Source of the DNA: a virus
Length of the DNA stretch: 20,470 nucleotides
Strand: one strand, 5' to 3'
Virus record (IMG/VR): IMGVR_UViG_3300025137_000392
Span: 1 to 20,470 of that record
The notes beneath the pieces are model-generated. The model ran no database searches, was not told where the DNA came from, and saw only the letters and a program-made list of their open reading frames with translations. A program made the translations under genes and the position numbers. Below, piece by piece: positions 2,790 to 19,813 of the stretch; position 1 is the stretch's first letter, and each line of letters opens with the position of its first letter.

Positions 2790-3725
2790 ATGATCGAGGA
2801 CAAAAGAAAAATTGTAACCCAAGTTCTTGGGAGTTATTGGCAGAAAGGAGACGAACATCTTTATCACTGCCCTTATTGCAACCACCACAAGAAGAAAATG
2901 TCGGTGAACTTCACAAATGGCTACTGGAAATGCTGGGTTTGCGATGCAAGAGGAAAGAACATTTATCGAGTTGTAAGAAAGTTCGGCACGTACCAACAAC
3001 GACAGAAGTATCTTGAACTACAAGGCAGACTTGACCTCAATGAGTTCGAGGACCTTTTTAAAGAATTGAACAACGAGGAAGAAAAACAAAAGATTGATCT
3101 TCCCGAAGAATTTATTTCTCTCTGCAACAAAGACTTGCCGATGGATACAACGGACGTCTTCCGCTATCTATCGTCCCGAGGCATTAGCCGGAGAGAGATA
3201 TTGAAATGGAAAATTGGCTATTGTAAGGAGGGCCGCTATGGAGGACGAATCATCATCCCCTCGATTGACACTGATGGAGATTGCAATTACTTTATTGCTC
3301 GCAGTTATGTTGGGCACCAGCGTAGGTACCTCAACCCTCCAACAGATCGTGACATCGTATTTAACGAACTAAACATAGACTGGGACGACCCCATCGTTCT
3401 TGTTGAGGGCGTCTTTGATGCTATAGCAGCAGGAGAGAATGCAATCCCGATCTTAGGATCAACACTAAGAGAAAAGTCTCGGCTGTTTCAAGCCATTGCT
3501 GTTCATGATACACCAGTCTACATGGCTCTTGATCATGATGCCGAGAAGAAAGCAGAGTGGATTATCAAATCATTATTGAAATACGACCTTGAAGTGTTCA
3601 AAATCCCAATTGATGAAGAAGATGTCGGAGAAATGGGAAATCAAGAGTTCAAAGAAAGGTTGGAAGAAGCACAGCCTATCAAGAATGAAATGTATTTTTT
3701 CGAAAAAATGCTCCAAAGCATTTGA
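2790..3725 (+). CDS. DNA primase, T4 gp61-like (311 aa)
   Basis: The N-terminus has a zinc-binding domain with C27/C30 (CPYC) and C48/C51 (CWVC), the element with which bacterial-type primases recognise template. The C-terminal half has a TOPRIM domain: E206 in VLVEGVFDA and D248/D250 in ALDHDAE, the metal-binding acidic residues for RNA primer synthesis. A length near 310 residues fits the stand-alone T4 gp61 type, without a fused helicase; the helicase partner is not in the window. The ATG at 2790 follows directly on the previous stop, with GGGAG at 2780-2784. The terminal TGA (3723-3725) lies inside the -35 box of the next promoter. Function is well supported by the two domains. Confidence 0.88.
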   Translation: MIEDKRKIVTQVLGSYWQKGDEHLYHCPYCNHHKKKMSVNFTNGYWKCWVCDARGKNIYRVVRKFGTYQQRQKYLELQGRLDLNEFEDLFKELNNEEEKQKIDLPEEFISLCNKDLPMDTTDVFRYLSSRGISRREILKWKIGYCKEGRYGGRIIIPSIDTDGDCNYFIARSYVGHQRRYLNPPTDRDIVFNELNIDWDDPIVLVEGVFDAIAAGENAIPILGSTLREKSRLFQAIAVHDTPVYMALDHDAEKKAEWIIKSLLKYDLEVFKIPIDEEDVGEMGNQEFKERLEEAQPIKNEMYFFEKMLQSI

Positions 3726-5038: not shown

Positions 5039-5953
5039 ATGCTGTTATCACTTTTACTATGGGCATGCAGCGGAGACATCGGTATCAGAACTGTCGATAA
5101 GATCCAAACAGAACCTGACTCTGGTATCACAGTGGTCGACACAGCATCCTCTCAACCTTCTTCAGAGCCTTCTGGGGAACCAGCAGGAGAACCTGCTGCT
5201 GAACCATCCGAAGAGCCTTTGGGGGGCACTGTTGGTCTTATAACTTACAATTTAGAACAAATAGCTTGTCTAGAGTGTATGGGCGTTACTCAAGAAATTA
5301 CAATAGAGTTTCAAGCAAAGTTTCATGATAAAATAACTGAGACCCATCCGACATGGTACCCACAATCAGGGCAATGTGTAAACGTAGTTAGTCCAGTATC
5401 GATTGGGGTCCAAGCAAAGAACGTTGGACAATCTTTGAACATCCAAGGTAACCCGAACTCTTTTGCTGCCTATAACAACGGGATGAACCTTTATACAGGC
5501 TTCGTTATGGAGTCTCAGTATGATCGAGACACAAACTTAAGAGTGATAACACCAGACGGATCATCTTTTCAGTTCATGTCTTTACGTGGTTTTGATTTTA
5601 TTGAACCGTGGGAGATGCGCTATGTTGACCCATCTTATGCTTTTGCAGCAGTAGTCTCGAAGTTTGGAACACAATTTTCGTGGGGACCATTTGGTTCACA
5701 AGACTTATTCAACATTACAATCGCAACTTATTCTTCTGACGGGTCACAATTACTTGGTGTTGTTTCCTGTTCTGGACCGGATAGTGGGATGATGACTATT
5801 GATGGTTCTTACTTCACTTCTTATCCAACGTGGTCACTCAACGCCATTCACATGACCAGATTTTCTCAACAAAGAGTTCCCTTTGAAGGGCTAAATGGTT
5901 ACGTGGATGTGCAGCTCGAATGGTCAGTCGTGGGTACTGGACACATCGAGTAG
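5039..5953 (+). CDS. Predicted lipoprotein with Ser/Gly-Glu-Pro linker (304 aa)
   Basis: The first ten residues, MLLSLLLWAC, form a very short signal peptide with a lipobox-like LWAC; C10 would be lipidated. There is no basic residue before the hydrophobic core, which is unusual. Residues ~35-60 are a low-complexity linker of SEP, GEP and AEP units. The remaining ~240 residues are beta-rich, with several cysteines (CLEC, QCV, SCSG), no membrane helix and no family I recognise. AGGAG at 5029-5033 precedes the ATG. The protein would be anchored in a host membrane during infection. Superinfection exclusion or cell-surface modification are the usual roles of phage lipoproteins, but nothing here proves either. 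The linker style suggests acquisition from, or adaptation to, a particular bacterial host. Confidence 0.7.
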   Translation: MLLSLLLWACSGDIGIRTVDKIQTEPDSGITVVDTASSQPSSEPSGEPAGEPAAEPSEEPLGGTVGLITYNLEQIACLECMGVTQEITIEFQAKFHDKITETHPTWYPQSGQCVNVVSPVSIGVQAKNVGQSLNIQGNPNSFAAYNNGMNLYTGFVMESQYDRDTNLRVITPDGSSFQFMSLRGFDFIEPWEMRYVDPSYAFAAVVSKFGTQFSWGPFGSQDLFNITIATYSSDGSQLLGVVSCSGPDSGMMTIDGSYFTSYPTWSLNAIHMTRFSQQRVPFEGLNGYVDVQLEWSVVGTGHIE

Positions 5954-10325: not shown

Positions 10326-10735
10326 TTTGGTTGTTGATGTCCCTAGCATTTGCAGAGCCGCTCATGACCCCGCTAGCGGAAGGTGATGTGGCTCCTTTTG
10401 CTGGACGCTTGCTCAATGATGAGGCAATAACGTCTATAATTACGATGAAAGAATTCGCAGAAGAACAATGTTCTATTCAAGAATCATTAGATTTTTCACT
10501 AACGATGACGGAAAAACAGCTCGAAATTGACTATTTACAAGCAGAAAAAGAAATTTTGCAACAAAAGCATGACTTGCTTATGCAAATTAAAGACAATGAG
10601 ATAGAGATCCTTAGGTCGCACGTTAATCCTAAAAGACAAATGTGGGTATTTTTTGGAGGTTTCCTAGTCGGAACTACGTCATCATTGCTAACTTATTACG
10701 CTGTGGTAGAAATAAATGATCAAAATACGAATTAG
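10322..10735 (+). CDS. Exported coiled-coil protein with C-terminal membrane helix (137 aa)
   Basis: The start overlaps the previous stop (ATGA), and no separate ribosome binding site is visible. Residues 1-11 (MIWLLMSLAFA) look like a very short signal peptide with an AxA-like end and no basic residue. A conserved-looking element GDVAPFAGRLLNDEA (21-35) follows, then a coiled coil (about 42-100) and a membrane helix at about 107-128. I recall the GDxAPFxGxL element in phage proteins near holins. With the two genes before it, this suggests a lysis or envelope-spanning complex. It would sit in the periplasm, held by its C-terminal helix. Function is inferred from architecture and position only. 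Confidence 0.6.
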   Translation: MIWLLMSLAFAEPLMTPLAEGDVAPFAGRLLNDEAITSIITMKEFAEEQCSIQESLDFSLTMTEKQLEIDYLQAEKEILQQKHDLLMQIKDNEIEILRSHVNPKRQMWVFFGGFLVGTTSSLLTYYAVVEINDQNTN

Positions 10736-11135
10736 AGCTGCAAGAAAAGACGAACTAGTTTGCCCTCCCGCAACTCAAGACCTAAAGCTGAATACGAAAA
10801 ACCGCGATGCGGCTATTCAAGCTGGGCACATTAAATACGGACCGCTCAATGTTAGCGAGCCTGCCGACTATTGGAAAGACATTGCAAAATACTGGGATAC
10901 AACAGAAGATGCTGCAAAGAAATCAAACTGTGGCAACTGTGTTGCTTTCGACATTAGTCCTAGAATGGATGAGTGTATGCCCGGCGTGACCTCTGATGAC
11001 GAAGGTCGCCTTGGCTACTGTTGGATGCATCATTTCAAATGTCACAGTGCAAGATCTTGTTATACATGGGCAAAGGGTGGTCCAATCTCGGAGGATAAAA
11101 TTTCTTACGATTGGCAGAAACGAGGTGAAAGTTGA
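10716..11135 (+). CDS. Cys-rich protein with HiPIP-like cysteine spacing (139 aa)
   Basis: The ATG at 10716 lies 20 bases inside the upstream gene and has no clear ribosome binding site, so coupling is likely. The N-terminal half has TKNRDAAI and YGPLNV. The second half has C72-x2-C75 (NCGNCVAF), C87 (CMPG) and C102 (GYCW), with spacings 11 and 14. This pattern and the flanking aromatic/glycine residues resemble high-potential iron-sulfur proteins, which bind a 4Fe-4S cluster. Additional cysteines are at 16, 109 and 115. I remember close relatives in many uncultured marine T4-like phages, without a known function. A metal or Fe-S site is likely; an electron-transfer role is not established. 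Confidence 0.65.
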   Translation: MIKIRIRAARKDELVCPPATQDLKLNTKNRDAAIQAGHIKYGPLNVSEPADYWKDIAKYWDTTEDAAKKSNCGNCVAFDISPRMDECMPGVTSDDEGRLGYCWMHHFKCHSARSCYTWAKGGPISEDKISYDWQKRGES

Positions 11136-11503
11136 AATCAAAAGATCCAAATTATGCTGCAAAGGTTGAAAAAGCCATTGCAGAAAAATACGGAGAAGAA
11201 GCCGTAGCTAACCCAAAATCCCAATGGGATGATGATAAAGAAGAACAGTACCTAAGTGAACTCAAAAACAATTATCGTCAAGAAAAAGATACGGTAGAGC
11301 AAATTGAACTCGATGGAGTTTTAATCTCAAAAGAACTACTTAATAAAGAATCTGAAAGGTCGTGCCCTACTTGTAGCACTTACTCATTCAAATCAGTCGA
11401 TGACTTGTACATGACAAAATTTGATTGTTGCTATAGATGCTACATCCAATGGATCGAAGGCCGAGAAGATAGGTGGAAATCTGGATGGAGACCAAATAAA
11501 TGA
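11132..11503 (+). CDS. Zinc-ribbon protein of unknown function (123 aa)
   Basis: The start is a TTG at 11132 overlapping the previous stop (TTGA). A GAGG at 11122-11125, six bases upstream, supports it, and MKSKDPNYAAKVEKAI is a natural N-terminus. The first half is charged and helical. The second half holds a zinc-ribbon candidate: C78/C81 (CPTC) and C99/C100/C103 (CCYRC), with DLYMTKFD between. The C-terminus WKSGWRPNK is tryptophan-rich. I recall relatives as orphans in marine T4-like phage genomes, usually next to genes like its neighbours here. Nucleic-acid or protein binding through the ribbon is plausible but not shown. Confidence 0.65.
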   Translation: MKSKDPNYAAKVEKAIAEKYGEEAVANPKSQWDDDKEEQYLSELKNNYRQEKDTVEQIELDGVLISKELLNKESERSCPTCSTYSFKSVDDLYMTKFDCCYRCYIQWIEGREDRWKSGWRPNK

Positions 11504-12054
11504 GCAAAGAAACATTAGAAATTATTGAAGCACTCGGACAAGCTGCAGCAAACGTATACGACGGCGTTCACATGGAGAACTATACTCTAGACGGACAAGT
11601 ACGCAGCGTAGGTCTTAAGAGAGAAGAGGGTATGCCCCTTCTTGATAAAAGAGTTATTGACGGCTTTAAAGTAAAGTTTTATGGCGACTCAATGATCATC
11701 ACTTATCAATCTGATGTTATGATGAGAGACCTTAAGGACAACGGATTTGAGAACGACATCACTCGAACAATCAATGAAGTTAAGAAGTTCTTACAAAAAG
11801 AATACAAAACCATTACTGGTAAATCAGTATCTCTTACAAAGAAAGGCGATCCACAAATTGTTGTACAAACAACATCAAGAGTTCGCACCTTTGTGCAGGC
11901 ATACCAACACTATAAAATCGGCGGCTTAAAAATGGACCAAATCAATGCTCCATCTGAGCCGAATGGCCGAGACATTACAAGAAAATTCTTGGACGCCGCG
12001 AAAGCAAAACGTCCAAGCAATGAAACCATCAAATCGGGAGACAATCAAAAATGA
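11500..12054 (+). CDS. Conserved phage protein of unknown function (184 aa)
   Basis: The ATG overlaps the previous stop (ATGA). The protein begins with a helix (LEIIEALGQAAANVYDG), then GLKREEG, DKRVIDGFKVKFYGDSMIITYQ (a beta hairpin region), a helix ending FLQKEYKTITGKSVSL, and a charged tail. There are no cysteines, membrane segments or catalytic motifs. I recall similar proteins in marine T4-like phages between lysis-type and terminase genes, which suggests a structural or tail-completion role, but none is proven. Its stop overlaps the start of a tiny cysteine-rich reading frame. Confidence 0.65.
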   Translation: MSKETLEIIEALGQAAANVYDGVHMENYTLDGQVRSVGLKREEGMPLLDKRVIDGFKVKFYGDSMIITYQSDVMMRDLKDNGFENDITRTINEVKKFLQKEYKTITGKSVSLTKKGDPQIVVQTTSRVRTFVQAYQHYKIGGLKMDQINAPSEPNGRDITRKFLDAAKAKRPSNETIKSGDNQK

Positions 12055-12122
12055 ATAACGTAGAAGAAAAATGTTGCGGGAATTGTTGCCCGTGCTGCTC
12101 GTGTGAATGTTGCGAGAAATAA
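12051..12122 (+). CDS. Cysteine-rich micropeptide (23 aa, nine Cys)
   Basis: This small frame starts at an ATG overlapping the upstream stop (ATGA), with GGGAG at 12036-12040 ten bases before it, and ends TAA at 12120-12122, four bases before the next start. It encodes MNNVEEK followed by CCGNCCPCCSCECC and EK: nine cysteines in the last 16 residues, arranged as CC pairs and CxC/CxxC. The density recalls metallothionein-like metal binders, but 23 residues is shorter than any I know. It fits the run of overlapping genes perfectly, which favours real translation. It could bind a zinc, iron or copper cluster, or act as a thiol peptide. Function unknown. Confidence 0.6.
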   Translation: MNNVEEKCCGNCCPCCSCECCEK

Positions 12123-12126
12123 ATCA

Positions 12127-12468
12127 ATGAAACTCTCAAAAGAAACTTTGATGCAAATTATCAAAGAAGAATTGACAGCCATACTTGGGGAAGAGGGGCA
12201 TAGTTCCGCCCCAACTCATGCCGCAGAAGTAAATGCCAACATGAGGTCAATGCTAGCAGAAGAAGGTTTCGAATCAGATTATGTAAGAGACCCTTACATG
12301 GCTTTTGATGGAAATGGATTTATGGATACAAATGGTCAAGAGTTCACAGTAGAGTATAAATTAAAATTTAATGAACAAGAGATGTCAGATGTCATCCGAA
12401 CTTACAACTCCGCCAAAGATAGTCTGAATGACGAAGATTATTTCATGGCAATTTCAGAAGTCGACTAA
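12127..12468 (+). CDS. Small acidic protein with MKLSK...IIKEEL N-terminal motif (113 aa)
   Basis: The ATG at 12127 is chosen over a GTG at 12103 because the motif-bearing N-terminus then matches its two downstream neighbours exactly; ribosome binding is weak (CGAG at 12113), and coupling to the micropeptide four bases upstream is likely. Residues 1-16 are MKLSKETLMQIIKEEL, followed by an L20-x-E22 site (LGE). The rest is acidic (about residues 25-113) without a recognised domain; it contains FDGNGFMDTNG. The N-terminal motif recurs at 12484 and 12818 and looks like a targeting peptide that the gp21-like protease of this phage could remove. It may therefore be an internal head protein. Confidence 0.65.
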   Translation: MKLSKETLMQIIKEELTAILGEEGHSSAPTHAAEVNANMRSMLAEEGFESDYVRDPYMAFDGNGFMDTNGQEFTVEYKLKFNEQEMSDVIRTYNSAKDSLNDEDYFMAISEVD

Positions 12469-12483
12469 TTGAGGGAATAAGTA

Positions 12484-12813
12484 ATGAAATTTACAAAACA
12501 ACAATTAAAAGAAATTATCAAAGAAGAACTTGCGGCTGTCCTAACCGAAGCTGATGGCGACCCCATTGTTCAAGTTAATCCAAATGGGCTTGAGTTCTCA
12601 AACATCGGACCAGACTATAAAAACTTTGAAGTACCAATTTCCAGATTGAATAGTTCCGCTCAGGAACTAATGGACTCTGCAGCCGAAAAAGAAGGCAAGG
12701 TTCTAATTAGAGACATCAACGGCGCAGCTGAGTTTTTTGAAAAGCTTGTCTCTGGTGTTACCAAAGATGAAATCGGTGCTGCAAGAATTGAAAAAGGATT
12801 CTATAAGGAATAA
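12484..12813 (+). CDS. Small protein with MKFTK...IIKEEL N-terminal motif (109 aa)
   Basis: The ATG follows GAGGG at 12471-12475. The first 16 residues, MKFTKQQLKEIIKEEL, repeat the motif of the preceding gene, and LTE (20-22) followed by A is an exact match to the LxE/A cleavage rule of T4 gp21. A 17-base DNA stretch at this motif is identical to that at 12127, which suggests duplication or shuffling of the leader. The body (about 23-109) is mixed alpha/beta with IVQVNPNGLEF and EFFEKLVSG and does not resemble the bodies of its neighbours. The pattern of a shared leader with different bodies fits T4 internal proteins, which share a capsid-targeting sequence. Confidence 0.65.
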   Translation: MKFTKQQLKEIIKEELAAVLTEADGDPIVQVNPNGLEFSNIGPDYKNFEVPISRLNSSAQELMDSAAEKEGKVLIRDINGAAEFFEKLVSGVTKDEIGAARIEKGFYKE

Positions 12814-12817
12814 GCAA

Positions 12818-12967
12818 ATGAAACTTTCAAAAGAACAATTAAAACAAATCATCAAAGAAGAGCTCGAAGCAGTTCTTTCAGAAGAAGGTATGGTTGAAGA
12901 AGCAGTTCTCGCAGAAGAGGAAACTCTTGAAGAAGTTGAGCAAGAGGAACTTGCGGAGAGTGAATGA
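12818..12967 (+). CDS. Very acidic small protein with MKLSK...IIKEEL motif (49 aa)
   Basis: The ATG at 12818 follows AAGGA near 12804 and gives the same leader as the two previous genes (MKLSKEQLKQIIKEEL, then LSE at 20-22). The remaining residues are almost only Glu, Leu, Val and Ala; 18 of the 49 residues are Glu, and further LxE sites (LAE, LEE) follow. The composition resembles T4 gp67, a short acidic prohead core protein that gp21 cuts to acidic internal peptides; this is analogy, not homology shown by alignment. Its stop overlaps the terminase start (ATGA), so it is the last gene before gp17, in the position where T4 carries the small terminase. A small-terminase role seems unlikely at this size. 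Confidence 0.62.
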   Translation: MKLSKEQLKQIIKEELEAVLSEEGMVEEAVLAEEETLEEVEQEELAESE

Positions 12968-14541
12968 AACTCACCAAGAGTGAAATTGTTAAAGAACTTG
13001 TGAGATGTGGGAAAGACCCGCAGTATTTTATTGATAACTACTGTAAGATTTCCCACCCTCTCAAGGGACAAATCCCCTTCAAGACTTATGACTATCAGAA
13101 GGAGATGCTCCAAAACTTTAACGATTATCGTTTTAACGTAATCTTAAAAGCAAGACAGCTTGGGATCTCAACGATCTCTGCTGCTTATGTTGCATGGTTC
13201 ATGCTGTTTCATCGAGAAAAGAATGTTCTCGTAATCGCAACCAAACTATCCACAGCAACAAACCTCGTAAAGAAGGTGAAGATGATCTTTAAGAACCTTC
13301 CCTCTTTCATGTTGATCGCAAAGATTACAACAGACAACAAACAATCATTCGAATTATCAAACGGTTCTCAGGTAAAAGCCGGAACCACATCTGGAGATGC
13401 AGGTCGTTCAGAGGCGCTATCTCTTCTAATCATTGATGAGGCAGGTTTCGTAGATGGCCTTGAGGAGCTCTGGACGGGTCTTTATCCCACTCTATCAACA
13501 GGGGGTAGGTGCATAGCCCTCTCCACTCCTAACGGCGTAGGAAACTGGTTTCACAAGGCTTATAGTGAAGCTGAGAATGGAATGAATGATTTCTACCCAA
13601 CAAAGCTTATGTGGGATGTACATCCTGAAAGAAATCAAGAATGGTTCGAGAAAGAAACTCGGAACATGTCCAAGCGCCAAATCGCACAAGAGCTTGAGTG
13701 CTCTTTCAATGCTTCAGGTGAAACGGTCATCAATCCAGAAGATCTGACGTTGATGCACGAATTTATCCGAGAACCAGACTATAAAACAGGTTATGATAGG
13801 AACTATTGGATCTGGGAAAGGTACGAAGAAGGCGTACCCTATCTCCTTGTAGCAGACGTCGCAAGGGGAGATGGTAGTGACTTCTCCTGTTTTCACATTC
13901 TAAGAATTGATACCATGACGGTTGTAGCCGAATACCAAGGCAAACCAGATCTAGACATGTACTCCGACATACTTTTTTCTGCTGGAATGGAATACGGCAC
14001 CTGCCTTCTTGTTGTGGAGAACAATGGAATTGGAATTGCGGTCTTAGAGAAACTAAAAGAATTGCAATACGCAAAAATTTACTACTCAATTAAATCAACG
14101 CATGAGTATGTGGAGTCTTATTTAGCCGAAAATGACGATAGAGCCGTGCTCGGTTTTACAACTTCAACAAAGACAAGACCGTTAATCGTAGCCAAATTAG
14201 AGGAATACGTTAGAAATAAACTAATTAATATACATTCCAATCGTGTTTTTCACGAACTAAAAACTTTTATTTGGCACAACGGCAAACCTCAAGCCATGAG
14301 ATCTTACAATGATGATTTAGTTATGTCCCTAGCAATTGCTTGCTGGGTTCGGGACACGGCACTATCAGAAAGCGAAAGAGACATGGCTTATAAAAAAGCG
14401 ATGCTGGGTGGTTTGATGAAGTCTACAACGACTATGAACACTCAAATCAAGGGCCAAAAGATTTATAAAGAAACGTTCGAGCAAAAATACGAGGAGGAGA
14501 TAAAAAAATCAAAAGAATTTTTTTGGATTTATAAAGGATAA
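12964..14541 (+). CDS. Large terminase subunit, T4 gp17-like (525 aa)
   Basis: This is the ATP-driven packaging motor and nuclease. The N-terminal ATPase has the adenine-binding Q motif region (YDYQKEML), a Walker A variant LKARQLGIST at 61-70 in which the lysine precedes rather than follows the glycine, Walker B LLIIDE with D158/E159, and the coupling motif LSTPNG at 186-191. The C-terminal RNase H-like nuclease has D298 (VADVARGDGSD), E352 (VVENN) and D450/D451 (YNDDLVMS). Length is slightly below T4 gp17 (610). It starts at an ATG overlapping the previous stop (ATGA). The portal follows after three bases. Function is certain from motifs and context. Confidence 0.96.
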   Translation: MKLTKSEIVKELVRCGKDPQYFIDNYCKISHPLKGQIPFKTYDYQKEMLQNFNDYRFNVILKARQLGISTISAAYVAWFMLFHREKNVLVIATKLSTATNLVKKVKMIFKNLPSFMLIAKITTDNKQSFELSNGSQVKAGTTSGDAGRSEALSLLIIDEAGFVDGLEELWTGLYPTLSTGGRCIALSTPNGVGNWFHKAYSEAENGMNDFYPTKLMWDVHPERNQEWFEKETRNMSKRQIAQELECSFNASGETVINPEDLTLMHEFIREPDYKTGYDRNYWIWERYEEGVPYLLVADVARGDGSDFSCFHILRIDTMTVVAEYQGKPDLDMYSDILFSAGMEYGTCLLVVENNGIGIAVLEKLKELQYAKIYYSIKSTHEYVESYLAENDDRAVLGFTTSTKTRPLIVAKLEEYVRNKLINIHSNRVFHELKTFIWHNGKPQAMRSYNDDLVMSLAIACWVRDTALSESERDMAYKKAMLGGLMKSTTTMNTQIKGQKIYKETFEQKYEEEIKKSKEFFWIYKG

Positions 14542-14544
14542 AAA

Positions 14545-16428
14545 ATGGCTCGTAACGATAGAAACCCGAACAACAATCAAAATAGTTTGTTCAAATCTTT
14601 GACAAGAATGTTCTCTGGTCCGATAACACAAAGAAGAACCCAATCCGGTCGTCAATTAAGAAGAAGGCACTTGGATATGTACGCCAAGCGATTTAAGTCG
14701 GCGTCAGGACAACAGTTCAAGAAGACAGAATACAACCCAATGAATGTCATGGCGTTGAATATGATAACAAACAGGAATCGATCTGAACGTTACGTTGACT
14801 TTGACCAAATGGAATTCACACCAGAGATTGCCTCATCGCTAGATATTTATGCAGATGAGATGACGACTCACTCAGCATTGACTCCAATGCTCCACATTAA
14901 ATGCCCTAACGATGAAATCAAGTACATCTTGCATGGGCTATTTTACAATACTATGAACATAGAGCACAATCTTTTCGGTTGGGCAAGAACGATGTGTAAA
15001 TATGGAGACCTCTTTATTTATCTTGACATTGATGATGAAATGGGTATACAAAACTGCATCGGATTACCGCCACAAGAAGTTGAAAGACTTGAGGGAGAAG
15101 ATCCGTCAAACCCAAATTATGTTCAGTTTCAATGGAATAATGGCGGACTTACTTTAGAAAATTGGCAAGTTGCACACTTCCGTGTTCTAGGAAACGATCA
15201 ACATGCTCCATACGGGACAAGCGTCTTAGAACCCTCTCGAAGAATTTGGAGACAACTTACTCTTTTGGAAGACGCCATGATGGCTTATAGAATTACTCGT
15301 TCACCAGAACGACGTGTCTTTAAGATTGATGTTGGCGGGATTGCACCCCAAGATGTTGAGCAATACATGCAAAAGGTTATGACCCAGATGAAGCGTCACC
15401 AAGTTGTTGATGCCTCAACAGGTCGTGTAGACTTACGCTACAACCCTCTTTCAATTGAAGAGGATTACTTTATCCCTGTTCGCGGCGGACAGTCATCTAC
15501 AAACATTGAAAACCTGCCCGGCGGCCAATTCACGGCACAGATCGAAGATGTTAAGTATCTTCGAGACAAACTATTCTCGGCATTGAAAGTTCCGCAATCT
15601 TATCTTTCAATGGGCGAAGGTGCCACCGAAGACAAGACAACTCTCGCACAAAAGGACATCAGGTTCGCGAGAACAATTCAAAGATTGCAAAGAGTTATTT
15701 TATCTGAACTGGAAAAGATTGGAATTGTCCACCTTTATACATTGGGCTATAGAGGGGATGACTTGTTGGGATTTAAATTATCTTTAAACAACCCATCTAA
15801 GATTGCAGAAATGCAAGAGCTTGAACATTGGAAGACTAAGTTTGACATCGCAGCTACAGCAACAGAAGGGTTCTTTTCCCGTAGATGGATTTCAGAAAAC
15901 CTTCTGGGTCTATCACAAGATGAGTATGTCAGAATGCAAAGAGAAATGTATGGTGATAGAAAATTCATGGCCCGCCTTGAGGCGGCTGGTTCAGGCGATG
16001 ATGCCGGAGCTGCCGGCGGAGGAGGTCTTGGAGGAGATCTAGGTGGAGACTTAGGTGGAGATCTAGGTGGAGACTTAGGTGGAGATGACCTTGGAGGAGA
16101 CTTGGATCTTGGTGGAGACACCGGAGGCGATACTGGTGCCACTGCGGAACCAGACCTATTGGCCGAACCTCCAGCAAAACGAGATGACGGAAGAAAAAGA
16201 GCAGGCTTTGGTAAGCAAATGAAAAACCAAGCATTCAGCGGCGAAGTTCGCGGATCGACTTCTAGAACAACCTATCCGGGCAAAGTTGGTTTCGGGGGAT
16301 TGGACTCTCTAGCTAGAGGGGTTTATGAAAGTAATCAAATGGAAGAAGACAAACTATTTAGCATTGATCATGAACTGAAAACACTCATTGAATCTTTGAA
16401 CTTGAAAGGAGAACAAGATGAAGCATAA
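14545..16428 (+). CDS. Portal vertex protein, T4 gp20-like (627 aa)
   Basis: The protein forms the dodecameric ring through which DNA is packaged. It has the T4-family portal hallmarks in order: an R-rich N-terminus, YVDFDQMEFTPEIASSLDIY, a PYGTSVLEPSRRIWRQL segment, and KVPQSYLSMGEGATEDKTTLAQKDIRFARTI split across about 350-385. AAAGGA at 14533-14538 precedes the ATG. Residues ~490-532 are a low-complexity insert of GGDL repeats, encoded by an imperfect 12/24-base DNA repeat, followed by an Ala/Pro/Lys-rich linker. T4 gp20 is 524 residues, so this tail accounts for the extra length. The end overlaps the next start by 11 bases. The reverse-strand Pro/Ser-rich frame over the repeat is an artefact. 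Confidence 0.95.
   Translation: MARNDRNPNNNQNSLFKSLTRMFSGPITQRRTQSGRQLRRRHLDMYAKRFKSASGQQFKKTEYNPMNVMALNMITNRNRSERYVDFDQMEFTPEIASSLDIYADEMTTHSALTPMLHIKCPNDEIKYILHGLFYNTMNIEHNLFGWARTMCKYGDLFIYLDIDDEMGIQNCIGLPPQEVERLEGEDPSNPNYVQFQWNNGGLTLENWQVAHFRVLGNDQHAPYGTSVLEPSRRIWRQLTLLEDAMMAYRITRSPERRVFKIDVGGIAPQDVEQYMQKVMTQMKRHQVVDASTGRVDLRYNPLSIEEDYFIPVRGGQSSTNIENLPGGQFTAQIEDVKYLRDKLFSALKVPQSYLSMGEGATEDKTTLAQKDIRFARTIQRLQRVILSELEKIGIVHLYTLGYRGDDLLGFKLSLNNPSKIAEMQELEHWKTKFDIAATATEGFFSRRWISENLLGLSQDEYVRMQREMYGDRKFMARLEAAGSGDDAGAAGGGGLGGDLGGDLGGDLGGDLGGDDLGGDLDLGGDTGGDTGATAEPDLLAEPPAKRDDGRKRAGFGKQMKNQAFSGEVRGSTSRTTYPGKVGFGGLDSLARGVYESNQMEEDKLFSIDHELKTLIESLNLKGEQDEA
16016..16138 (+). repeat. Tandem GGAGAT/CTAGGT-type repeat in the portal gene
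   Basis: A 24-base unit (GATCTAGGTGGAGACTTAGG plus TGGA), itself two similar 12-base halves, is repeated imperfectly and encodes alternating Gly-Gly-Asp-Leu. Unit number could vary by slippage. It does not have the GGxGxDxLx order of RTX calcium-binding repeats. Confidence 0.85.
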
Positions 16429-18566: not shown

Positions 18567-19193
18567 ATGTCTAAAAAATTATTAAGAGAATTCCACGCAT
18601 TATGTCCAGACGGCAGATGTCTTGATCTACTAACTGAACTAGAAAAGAAGGAAGTTGTTGAAGAGGGTGTGGTTTACCTAACCGGTCGTATTCAAACTGC
18701 CGATAAGAAAAATGGCAATGGTCGTGTGTATCCAGAAAGCGTTCTCAAAAGAGAAATGGAAAATTACATGAAGATTGTTAAAGACAATAGAGCCACAGGT
18801 GAACTTGATCATCCCGATGATTCTGTTATTAATCTTAAAAATGTCTCTCACATGATCACAGATTGTTGGTGGGAAGGAAAAGACGTGATGGGCAAGATCA
18901 AAGTTCTTGAGACTCCATCCGGTAGAATTTTGAAAGACTTAATTAATGCCGGTGTAAAGCTTGGTATTTCCTCAAGAGGTTTGGGTTCGGTCAAAGAATC
19001 GATGGGAGTTACAACTGTTGAAGAAGATTTTCAACTTATTTGTTTCGACATCGTCTCTGAACCATCAACACCTGAAGCCTACGTCTATCCAGACGGAGAC
19101 GATAAAAATAACGTCACTACTTTTAATACTCGTTTGCGAGAGCAGAGAGAAAATAATATTGATAATCTATTTAAAAGGATTCTTGGAGACTAA
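18567..19193 (+). CDS. Prohead core protease, T4 gp21-like (208 aa)
   Basis: This is the serine protease (peptidase S80 type) that assembles in the prohead core and cleaves scaffold, internal and capsid proteins after (L/I)xE. Catalytic H82 lies in GELDHPDD and S135/S136 in KLGISSRGLGSV, in the expected order and spacing for T4 gp21 (212 residues). NLKNVSHMITDCWWEGKDV is a further family segment. The ATG at 18567 follows GAGGAG and gives MSKKLLREF; an upstream in-frame GTG at 18528 lies in the hairpin and is rejected. The gene stands alone behind a structured leader. Several small proteins in the window carry candidate cleavage sites for it. Confidence 0.95.
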   Translation: MSKKLLREFHALCPDGRCLDLLTELEKKEVVEEGVVYLTGRIQTADKKNGNGRVYPESVLKREMENYMKIVKDNRATGELDHPDDSVINLKNVSHMITDCWWEGKDVMGKIKVLETPSGRILKDLINAGVKLGISSRGLGSVKESMGVTTVEEDFQLICFDIVSEPSTPEAYVYPDGDDKNNVTTFNTRLREQRENNIDNLFKRILGD

Positions 19194-19619
19194 ATGAAAA
19201 GAGAAGAATTAAAAAAGACACTTAGACCACTTATAAAAGAGTGCATCAAAGAAGTTATCTTCGAAGAAGGAGTTCTATCAGGAATCATTTCTGAGGTTAT
19301 GAAAGGTACCAGCGGACAACGTATCGTTGAGACCCAACAACCCGTTTATCAAAAACCACAAGTAGATCACGATGCTCAACGTAAAAAATTGCAAGAGCAA
19401 AGAAGGAAAATGCTTGACTCAATTGGAAAAGATGCCTATAATGGCATTGACCTTTTTGAAGGCACAACACCTTTATCTAGCGGCGGAGGAGCATCTTCCT
19501 CACCTAGTCCTCACGGATCAAAAGCTCTAGACGGTGTTGACCCAAGAGACTCTGGCGTCGACTTGTCTGCTCTTGGTGTTAATACAAGTATCTGGTCTAA
19601 ACTAGCAAAGGGAAAATAA
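19194..19619 (+). CDS. Prohead core/scaffold-like protein (141 aa)
   Basis: The ATG begins directly after the protease stop, with GGAG at 19185-19188. Residues 1-40 are helical and rich in (L/I)xE sites (IKE, IFE, ISE), and the style of the N-terminus (KREELKKTLRPLIKECIKEV) is like the IIKEEL leaders at 12127-12967. The middle is Gln/Lys-rich, and the C-terminus has a Gly/Ser/Pro linker then VDLSALGVNTSIWSKLAKGK. T4 places the scaffold gp22 right after gp21; this protein has the position but is about half the length and I see no direct similarity. A core or internal protein processed by the protease is the best guess. Confidence 0.6.
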   Translation: MKREELKKTLRPLIKECIKEVIFEEGVLSGIISEVMKGTSGQRIVETQQPVYQKPQVDHDAQRKKLQEQRRKMLDSIGKDAYNGIDLFEGTTPLSSGGGASSSPSPHGSKALDGVDPRDSGVDLSALGVNTSIWSKLAKGK

Positions 19620-19813
19620 TGGCTGCAAATTATAGAGCAAAGCCTCGCAAAAACGAGAGCATGGAAAAATTCGTGAAGAGATTCACAAAAAAATGTAAAA
19701 AACTTGGTATCATCCAAGAGTGTCGTGATAGAAAGCACTTCGTAGGACAATCTGAAAAGAAGCGTCTCGCTCGGAAAAAGTGGAGATCGCGGCTCAAGAA
19801 GAATAATAAATAA
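19619..19813 (+). CDS. rpsU-like: Ribosomal protein bS21 homologue (64 aa)
   Basis: The sequence follows the bS21 pattern closely: NESMEKFVKRFTKKCKKLGI (12-31, matching the bacterial NExxxxxxxRFKRxCxKAG segment), then ECRDRKHF (34-41, for EVRRRxFY), SEKKR and a basic tail. Size and charge fit (bacterial S21 is about 55-71 residues). S21 sits near the anti-Shine-Dalgarno end of 16S rRNA and affects initiation; phage-encoded S21 is known from marine phages, including a SAR11 T4-like phage. It could bias host ribosomes toward phage messages. The start overlaps the previous stop (TAATG), with AAAGGG at 19607-19612. Its position among late head genes is unusual for a translation factor. Confidence 0.82.
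   Translation: MAANYRAKPRKNESMEKFVKRFTKKCKKLGIIQECRDRKHFVGQSEKKRLARKKWRSRLKKNNK

Follow-up and report, generated by a model that had tools for sequence, protein, structure and literature searches.

In bacteriophage T4 a 10-residue capsid-targeting sequence (CTS) directs proteins to the prohead core and is subsequently removed by the protease gp21, after which the internal protein IPI serves to protect the injected DNA (PMC9026906, PMC3012670). The protease gp21 cuts after L/I-x-E, and Alt, an injected ADP-ribosyltransferase of the same phage, is processed at both of its ends (PMC9026906). The published view of T4-type injected sets is that they are diverse and that only the CTS is conserved (PMC3012670); in the T4 sequences themselves the CTS reads MKTYQEFIAE in both IPII and IPIII. 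Head and ejection proteins of phages phiKZ and SPN3US likewise carry propeptides, and a gp21-related protease cleaves these on the C-terminal side of Glu (PMC5694885).

The locus described here lies in the record of an uncultured virus, 20,470 bases long, which was analysed over its whole length and is referred to as the window. It contains a T4-type head module with terminase, portal and S77 prohead protease. The module is encoded on the + strand and includes the genes for the terminase large subunit (12964-14541), a T4-type portal protein corresponding to gp20 (14545-16428; PF07230 Portal_T4, E 8e-78) and a prohead protease (18567-19193), the presumed processing enzyme. The initial annotation had called the latter gp21-like, and this is confirmed: the protein lies above the Pfam cut-off for Peptidase_S77 (E 4e-32), and its alignment with T4 gp21 shows that the catalytic residues are kept (His82, Ser135/136 and Asp161). 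A search of cellular genomes for this protease found no relative and so gave no pointer to the host. A 32.5-kb IMG/VR contig (L122) extends the window and is identical to it over the protease.

Upstream of the terminase, three adjacent + strand open reading frames (ORFs) encode proteins of 113 (12127-12468), 109 (12484-12813) and 49 residues (12818-12967), which had been described as sharing an N-terminal leader that closes with L20-x-E22 while the remainder of each protein differs. This description holds, as residues 1-22 are MKLSKETLMQIIKEELTAILGE (12127-12192), MKFTKQQLKEIIKEELAAVLTE (12484-12549) and MKLSKEQLKQIIKEELEAVLSE (12818-12883), with LGE, LTE and LSE respectively at residues 20-22 and predicted cuts after E22 (LGE|E, LTE|A and LSE|E), and the bodies that follow are unrelated. 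A model of the leader matches the window record at these three places and nowhere else (E 9.5e-14, 5.6e-13 and 2.0e-10). The pairwise DNA identity of the leaders is 35/48, 37/48 and 41/48 and that of the bodies 25-36% (ungapped), and the 17 identical bases reported for the first two leaders were recovered as their longest common run. The codons of any two leaders differ both synonymously (2-5 of 16) and non-synonymously (2-6), which shows that the DNA was not freshly duplicated. Apart from the leader itself the proteins have almost no relatives: body 1 (91 residues, 12193-12468) has a single weak relative in L410 which bears the same leader, body 2 (87 residues, 12550-12813) has a distant relative in the same position in L026 that is also leader-tagged, and neither body belongs to a Pfam family. 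Pfam and PHROGs gave no function for any of the three proteins, the PHROGs matches being weak and of unknown function only, and the structure predictions of proteins 1 and 2, with a mean pLDDT of 49 and 47, respectively, are of too low quality to be used. The third protein contains 18 Glu among its 49 residues, and its Glu-rich tail of 27 residues (12884-12967) holds five further hxE sites, where h is hydrophobic, at E27, E28, E33, E39 and E47. The likeness to gp67-type core peptides that had been suggested for it is plausible in composition and in the repeated hxE sites but does not amount to gp67 homology, as no family match was obtained; this protein is more likely to be a core peptide that is chopped up in the prohead than cargo.

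The leader was searched for in IMG/VR with a degenerate DNA pattern covering residues 1-16, to which loci picked by their protease only were added; residues from 17 onward did not enter the selection. Such an environmental search for the leader at the N-termini of unrelated bodies had been proposed at the outset, and it returned the leader on at least 242 non-redundant bodies, which supports, at the level of sequence, the idea of a modular unit. The leader has the pattern MK[IL]TKxxLKQIIKEELxxhhxE (tag A), within which I12-K13-E14 is nearly invariant. The motif continues past the selected part with V19, L/M20 and E22, and its information content drops from 0.9 bits at residue 22 to 0.27 at residue 23 and 0.08 at residue 24, so that conservation ends at residues 22-23 and then reaches background. 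The conserved residues are encoded with synonymous codon variation, and selection therefore acts on the peptide. Long contigs encode between 2 and 11 tagged proteins each. Few tag-A bodies have known domains (exonuclease, GNAT), and relatives of the window also carry mini-proteins of 26-36 aa that consist of the leader only. The degenerate DNA pattern did not occur in any of 84,980 bacterial and archaeal species, each represented by one genome (GTDB), and tblastn of the leader peptides against phage records gave no matches, the query probably being too short or masked. Two leader cores, one of them internal, occur within one ORF in L192:473-1285, L020 (1632), L035 (1317) and L042 (6519), as if two tagged proteins had been fused.

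The end of the leader has the character of a protease site. The motif [LIVM]xE with its Glu at residues 18-27 is found in 83% of the at least 242 proteins (strict [LI]xE in 50%) and is lacking there in 17% of the leaders, compared with a control value of 11-18% for ten-residue windows farther inside the proteins. A Glu goes together with a hydrophobic residue exactly two positions before it in three registers (E19 with h17, OR 299, p 3e-15; E21 with h19, p 8e-7; E22 with h20, p 6e-14), with little or no coupling at spacings of -1, -3 and -4, and the residue after the leader Glu is enriched in G/A/S. Since the pair moves jointly across the three registers, a fixed helix fits poorly, and this behaviour is as expected for a protease site, although hydrophobic residues near positions 19-20 would also fit a continuing helix. 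All 20 leader phages inspected for it (20/20) encode a Gp23 capsid protein, and in all 20 the presumed end of the capsid propeptide has LLRE or LLKE with S or A as the next residue, in the region of FLTE|A in T4. The proposal of a gp21-type (L/I)xE site at E22 is thus strengthened both by the coupling and by its agreement with the predicted site of the capsid protein. From the near-invariance of I12-K13-E14 an alternative cut after E14 is possible. Within tag-A bodies hxE is depleted (observed/expected 0.84) relative to control phage proteins (1.14), the controls being annotated proteins and window proteins, whereas hxD, hxK and hxQ are commoner than expected (1.2); the depletion is modest in tag A (p 0.005 against the control) and weak in the bodies of the second tag described below (0.95).

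The occurrence of the leader together with gp21-like proteases had been put forward as a check, and 43 leader contigs of at least 40 kb were selected by the leader alone. An S77 protease is encoded by 26 of these and a T4 portal by 30; in the four contigs that have a portal but lack S77, the sequence stops at the portal or at most 2.2 kb beyond it on the protease side, the shortest portal-protease distance observed being about 2.4 kb, and the remaining 13 contigs without S77 also lack the portal. Every leader contig that extends far enough past the portal gene thus has S77 (26/26). Among 50 random contigs drawn with an arbitrary 14-mer, one has the leader and the same contig has S77. A leader common among phages that lack a gp21-type protease would contradict the initial annotation; such occurrences were looked for and not found, the leader being present in 0 of the 35 random contigs without S77. 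In contigs of at least 100 kb the plain contrast in S77 content is not significant (13/16 vs 3/7, p 0.14), the count that takes position into account being the stronger version of this comparison. Conversely, 14 of the 15 random S77 contigs do not carry the tag A leader, and the leader model finds none in T4, RM378 or P-SSM4, from which it follows that the leader is confined to one branch of S77 phages. As leader and protease share one T4-like lineage, their co-occurrence is partly a matter of descent.

A second N-terminal tag, MKLLxENWRxYLxE (tag B), is found in the same phages and gene clusters, for instance in L365:5254-7294 (- strand) and further loci. It occurs on at least 183 non-redundant bodies and has Glu at its last position in 90% of cases, or in 34/39 where loci were chosen otherwise than by tag B; its FLxE/YLxE ending is reminiscent of FIAE in T4. 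On our own reading the two tags appear to be laid out alike, with [LI]xE followed by hxE eight residues later. Nine tag-A bodies match tag-B bodies, most clearly in L023/L400 (76% identity over 51 residues), and the tags are interchangeable for several bodies. An untagged Cys-rich protein of the window (10716-11135) has the same body as tag-B proteins in L365:201-701 (-) and L437. Known domains are commoner among tag-B than among tag-A bodies and comprise GNAT, Zeta-toxin-type kinase, NUDIX, exonuclease, protein kinase, RNA-repair domains and peptidoglycan enzymes; two pentapeptide-repeat proteins in the tag-B domain set actually carry tag A. Gene context and fusions have been used to argue that myoviruses package NAD/ADP-ribose enzymes (PMC9503650), and no mention of tag A or tag B was seen in that work. 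It is tentatively suggested, at somewhat less than even probability, that an abundant uncultured T4-like lineage uses at least two interchangeable N-terminal tags to load a large and rapidly swapped effector set into the head, and that the tags may sort cargo by place or stage. If such a two-tag address system is real, the injected proteome of these phages could be read directly from sequence.

The tagged genes of the window occupy a slot (12055-12963, +) between a conserved gene without assigned function (11500-12054, +; conserved in 122 loci), which forms its upstream border, and the terminase, which forms its downstream border. The flanking genes are well conserved in more than 100 loci, commonly with 60-94% identity, and the genes that relatives carry between them are mostly leader-tagged and differ in their bodies. 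Across 65 non-identical loci, of which one is empty, the slot contains 81 genes that fall into 53 body clusters; 51 of these genes have the strict leader and the others mostly leader variants or tag B. When 25 loci were picked by the protease only, 31 of the 32 slot genes carried the leader, against 6.6% of arbitrary ORFs with the relaxed leader pattern, which is far beyond chance. Conserved flanks, tagged genes and differing bodies together identify the region as a cassette slot in which the tag stays constant and the cargo changes.

Like IPI, IPII and IPIII of T4, the tagged proteins are differing small proteins with a common short N-terminus that starts with MK and ends in (L/I)xE, and tag-A phages also resemble T4 in having a gp21 protease, a T4-type portal and a Gp23 capsid protein. 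The sequence-level features of the T4 CTS class are present, namely a shared N-terminus on unrelated bodies, an (L/I)xE-type end and an S77 protease in the genome. In contrast to the 10-residue CTS, tag A is about 22 residues long and has no sequence match to it; the leader model finds nothing in the T4 genome, and MKTYQEFIAE does not recur in tag A. Since their sequence differs from the T4 CTS, the tagged proteins are not members of the T4 IP family and would only work like them. Further differences from the T4 IPs are the 2-11 tagged proteins per long contig, the hundreds of bodies overall and the coexisting second tag, and the cargo slot adjoins the terminase while the T4 ip genes sit elsewhere. 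L363:798-2648 (+) encodes a pentapeptide-repeat protein with an N-terminal leader and a leader-like segment, KSKLFKMIKEEILKEMNDW, at its extreme C-terminus; it recalls T4 Alt, which is carried in the head and processed at both ends, but its body is not an ADP-ribosyltransferase. As in phiKZ and SPN3US, the propeptide is predicted to be cut after Glu by a gp21-type protease, but the sites in those two phages are A-x-E or S/A/G-x-E, whereas tag A has a hydrophobic residue three before the cut, as does T4. A cultured counterpart is Flavobacterium phage immuto (L322), in which the leader model recognises two proteins, starting MKKSQLRQIIKEAL and MKKSELVKLIKEEL, and terminase, portal, S77-type protease and Gp23 are ordered as in tag-A phages; its leader is diverged, and virion proteomics of immuto was not found in the searchable literature, a paper on Baltic Flavobacterium phages covering neither immuto nor its virion proteome. 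Another repeated N-terminus of immuto, FDLKKFLVENKLT or (N)F(D/N)L(K/R)(K/S)FL(V/T)ENKLT, stands on different proteins at 3174, 16999 and 18000 and is possibly a third tag.

By analogy with T4, the leader is most likely a capsid-targeting propeptide that is cut by the phage's own S77 protease, and the bodies would be kept in the head and probably injected. The modular leader, its site-like motif, the matching protease and capsid site, the slot and the exchange of tags are all observed, and from them we infer targeting, cleavage, packaging and injection. It is proposed that a charged amphipathic helix, made up of residues 1-16, docks the new protein onto the prohead core, and that core and shell assemble after the leader has bound the core. 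The S77 protease would then remove the leader during head maturation, probably after E22 (hxE, residues 20-22) and possibly also after E14, and the freed bodies would remain beside the DNA inside the head, probably to be delivered into the host. The bodies would thereby represent fast-changing cargo, mostly orphans, with exonucleases, acetyltransferases and pentapeptide-repeat proteins in relatives. The interpretation first given, of prohead internal proteins with a modular packaging leader, is supported in so far as it fits every sequence-level test.

It is improbable that the leader proteins are instead mainly scaffold components of the prohead core like T4 gp67 and gp68, which would build the core, be destroyed by the protease and deliver nothing into the host. 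The Glu-rich 49-residue protein with its five hxE sites beyond L20-x-E22 would suit such a role, as would the leader-only mini-proteins of relatives and the position of the slot among head genes, but most bodies are larger and of great diversity, enzymes (exonuclease, GNAT) are among them, and the depletion of hxE in the bodies is the opposite of what is expected of proteins destined for chopping. The chances are slimmer that the leader is an uncut helix which docks to terminase, portal, core or tail and in which Glu is merely a helix residue. Low-confidence models do predict the leader to be helical and hydrophobic positions 8, 12, 16 and 19/20 suit an amphipathic helix; however, the coupling of Glu to a hydrophobic partner is seen at -2 in several registers, with hardly any at -1, -3 or -4, conservation ends at the Glu, and the same motif closes the capsid propeptide as well as tag B. 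It is scarcely credible that the similarity stems from a local duplication of recent date, or from a DNA or RNA signal that is conserved without protein function, in spite of the 17 bases common to leaders 1 and 2, as the conserved residues vary in their synonymous codons and the leader stands on hundreds of unrelated bodies in many contigs. Duplication, DNA-level signal and chance were rejected on this codon variation, the unrelated bodies and the 31/32 slot genes compared with 6.6%.

The principle of the CTS in T4-like phages is known, and the sequence of the tag, as read here, differs from that of T4. No earlier description of tags A and B, of their scale, of the slot or of the tag exchange was found in the searchable literature, which lacks most subscription papers and contains no bioRxiv preprints. 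If the preferred reading of a cleaved targeting propeptide is correct, tag A would be a new targeting peptide with which phage heads could be loaded with proteins, a simple sequence rule would list candidate injected proteins in abundant and otherwise unannotated uncultured phages and point to new anti-defence and host-takeover proteins, and the question would arise why one phage maintains two tags.

Several other features of the window were observed. A 23-residue Cys-rich microprotein, MNNVEEKCCGNCCPCCSCECCEK (12051-12122), overlaps the stop codon of the conserved gene at 11500 (ATGA) and has near-identical copies in L150, L158, L164 and L041, and more distant relatives of the window carry other cysteine-rich mini-proteins. 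The conserved protein directly after the protease (19194-19619; 100 loci), which starts with MKREELKKTLRPLIKECIKEVIFEEG, has a faint likeness to the leader and no match to the leader model. It is followed by what is likely a phage-encoded ribosomal protein bS21 (19619-19813), and in Microcystis phage Mel-JY01 the matching position in the gene order is taken by an annotated RpsU. The ORF at 5039-5953 is lipoprotein-like and contains a region of PSSEPSGEPAGEP repeats, which is unusual in a phage and may be a hint to the host group.
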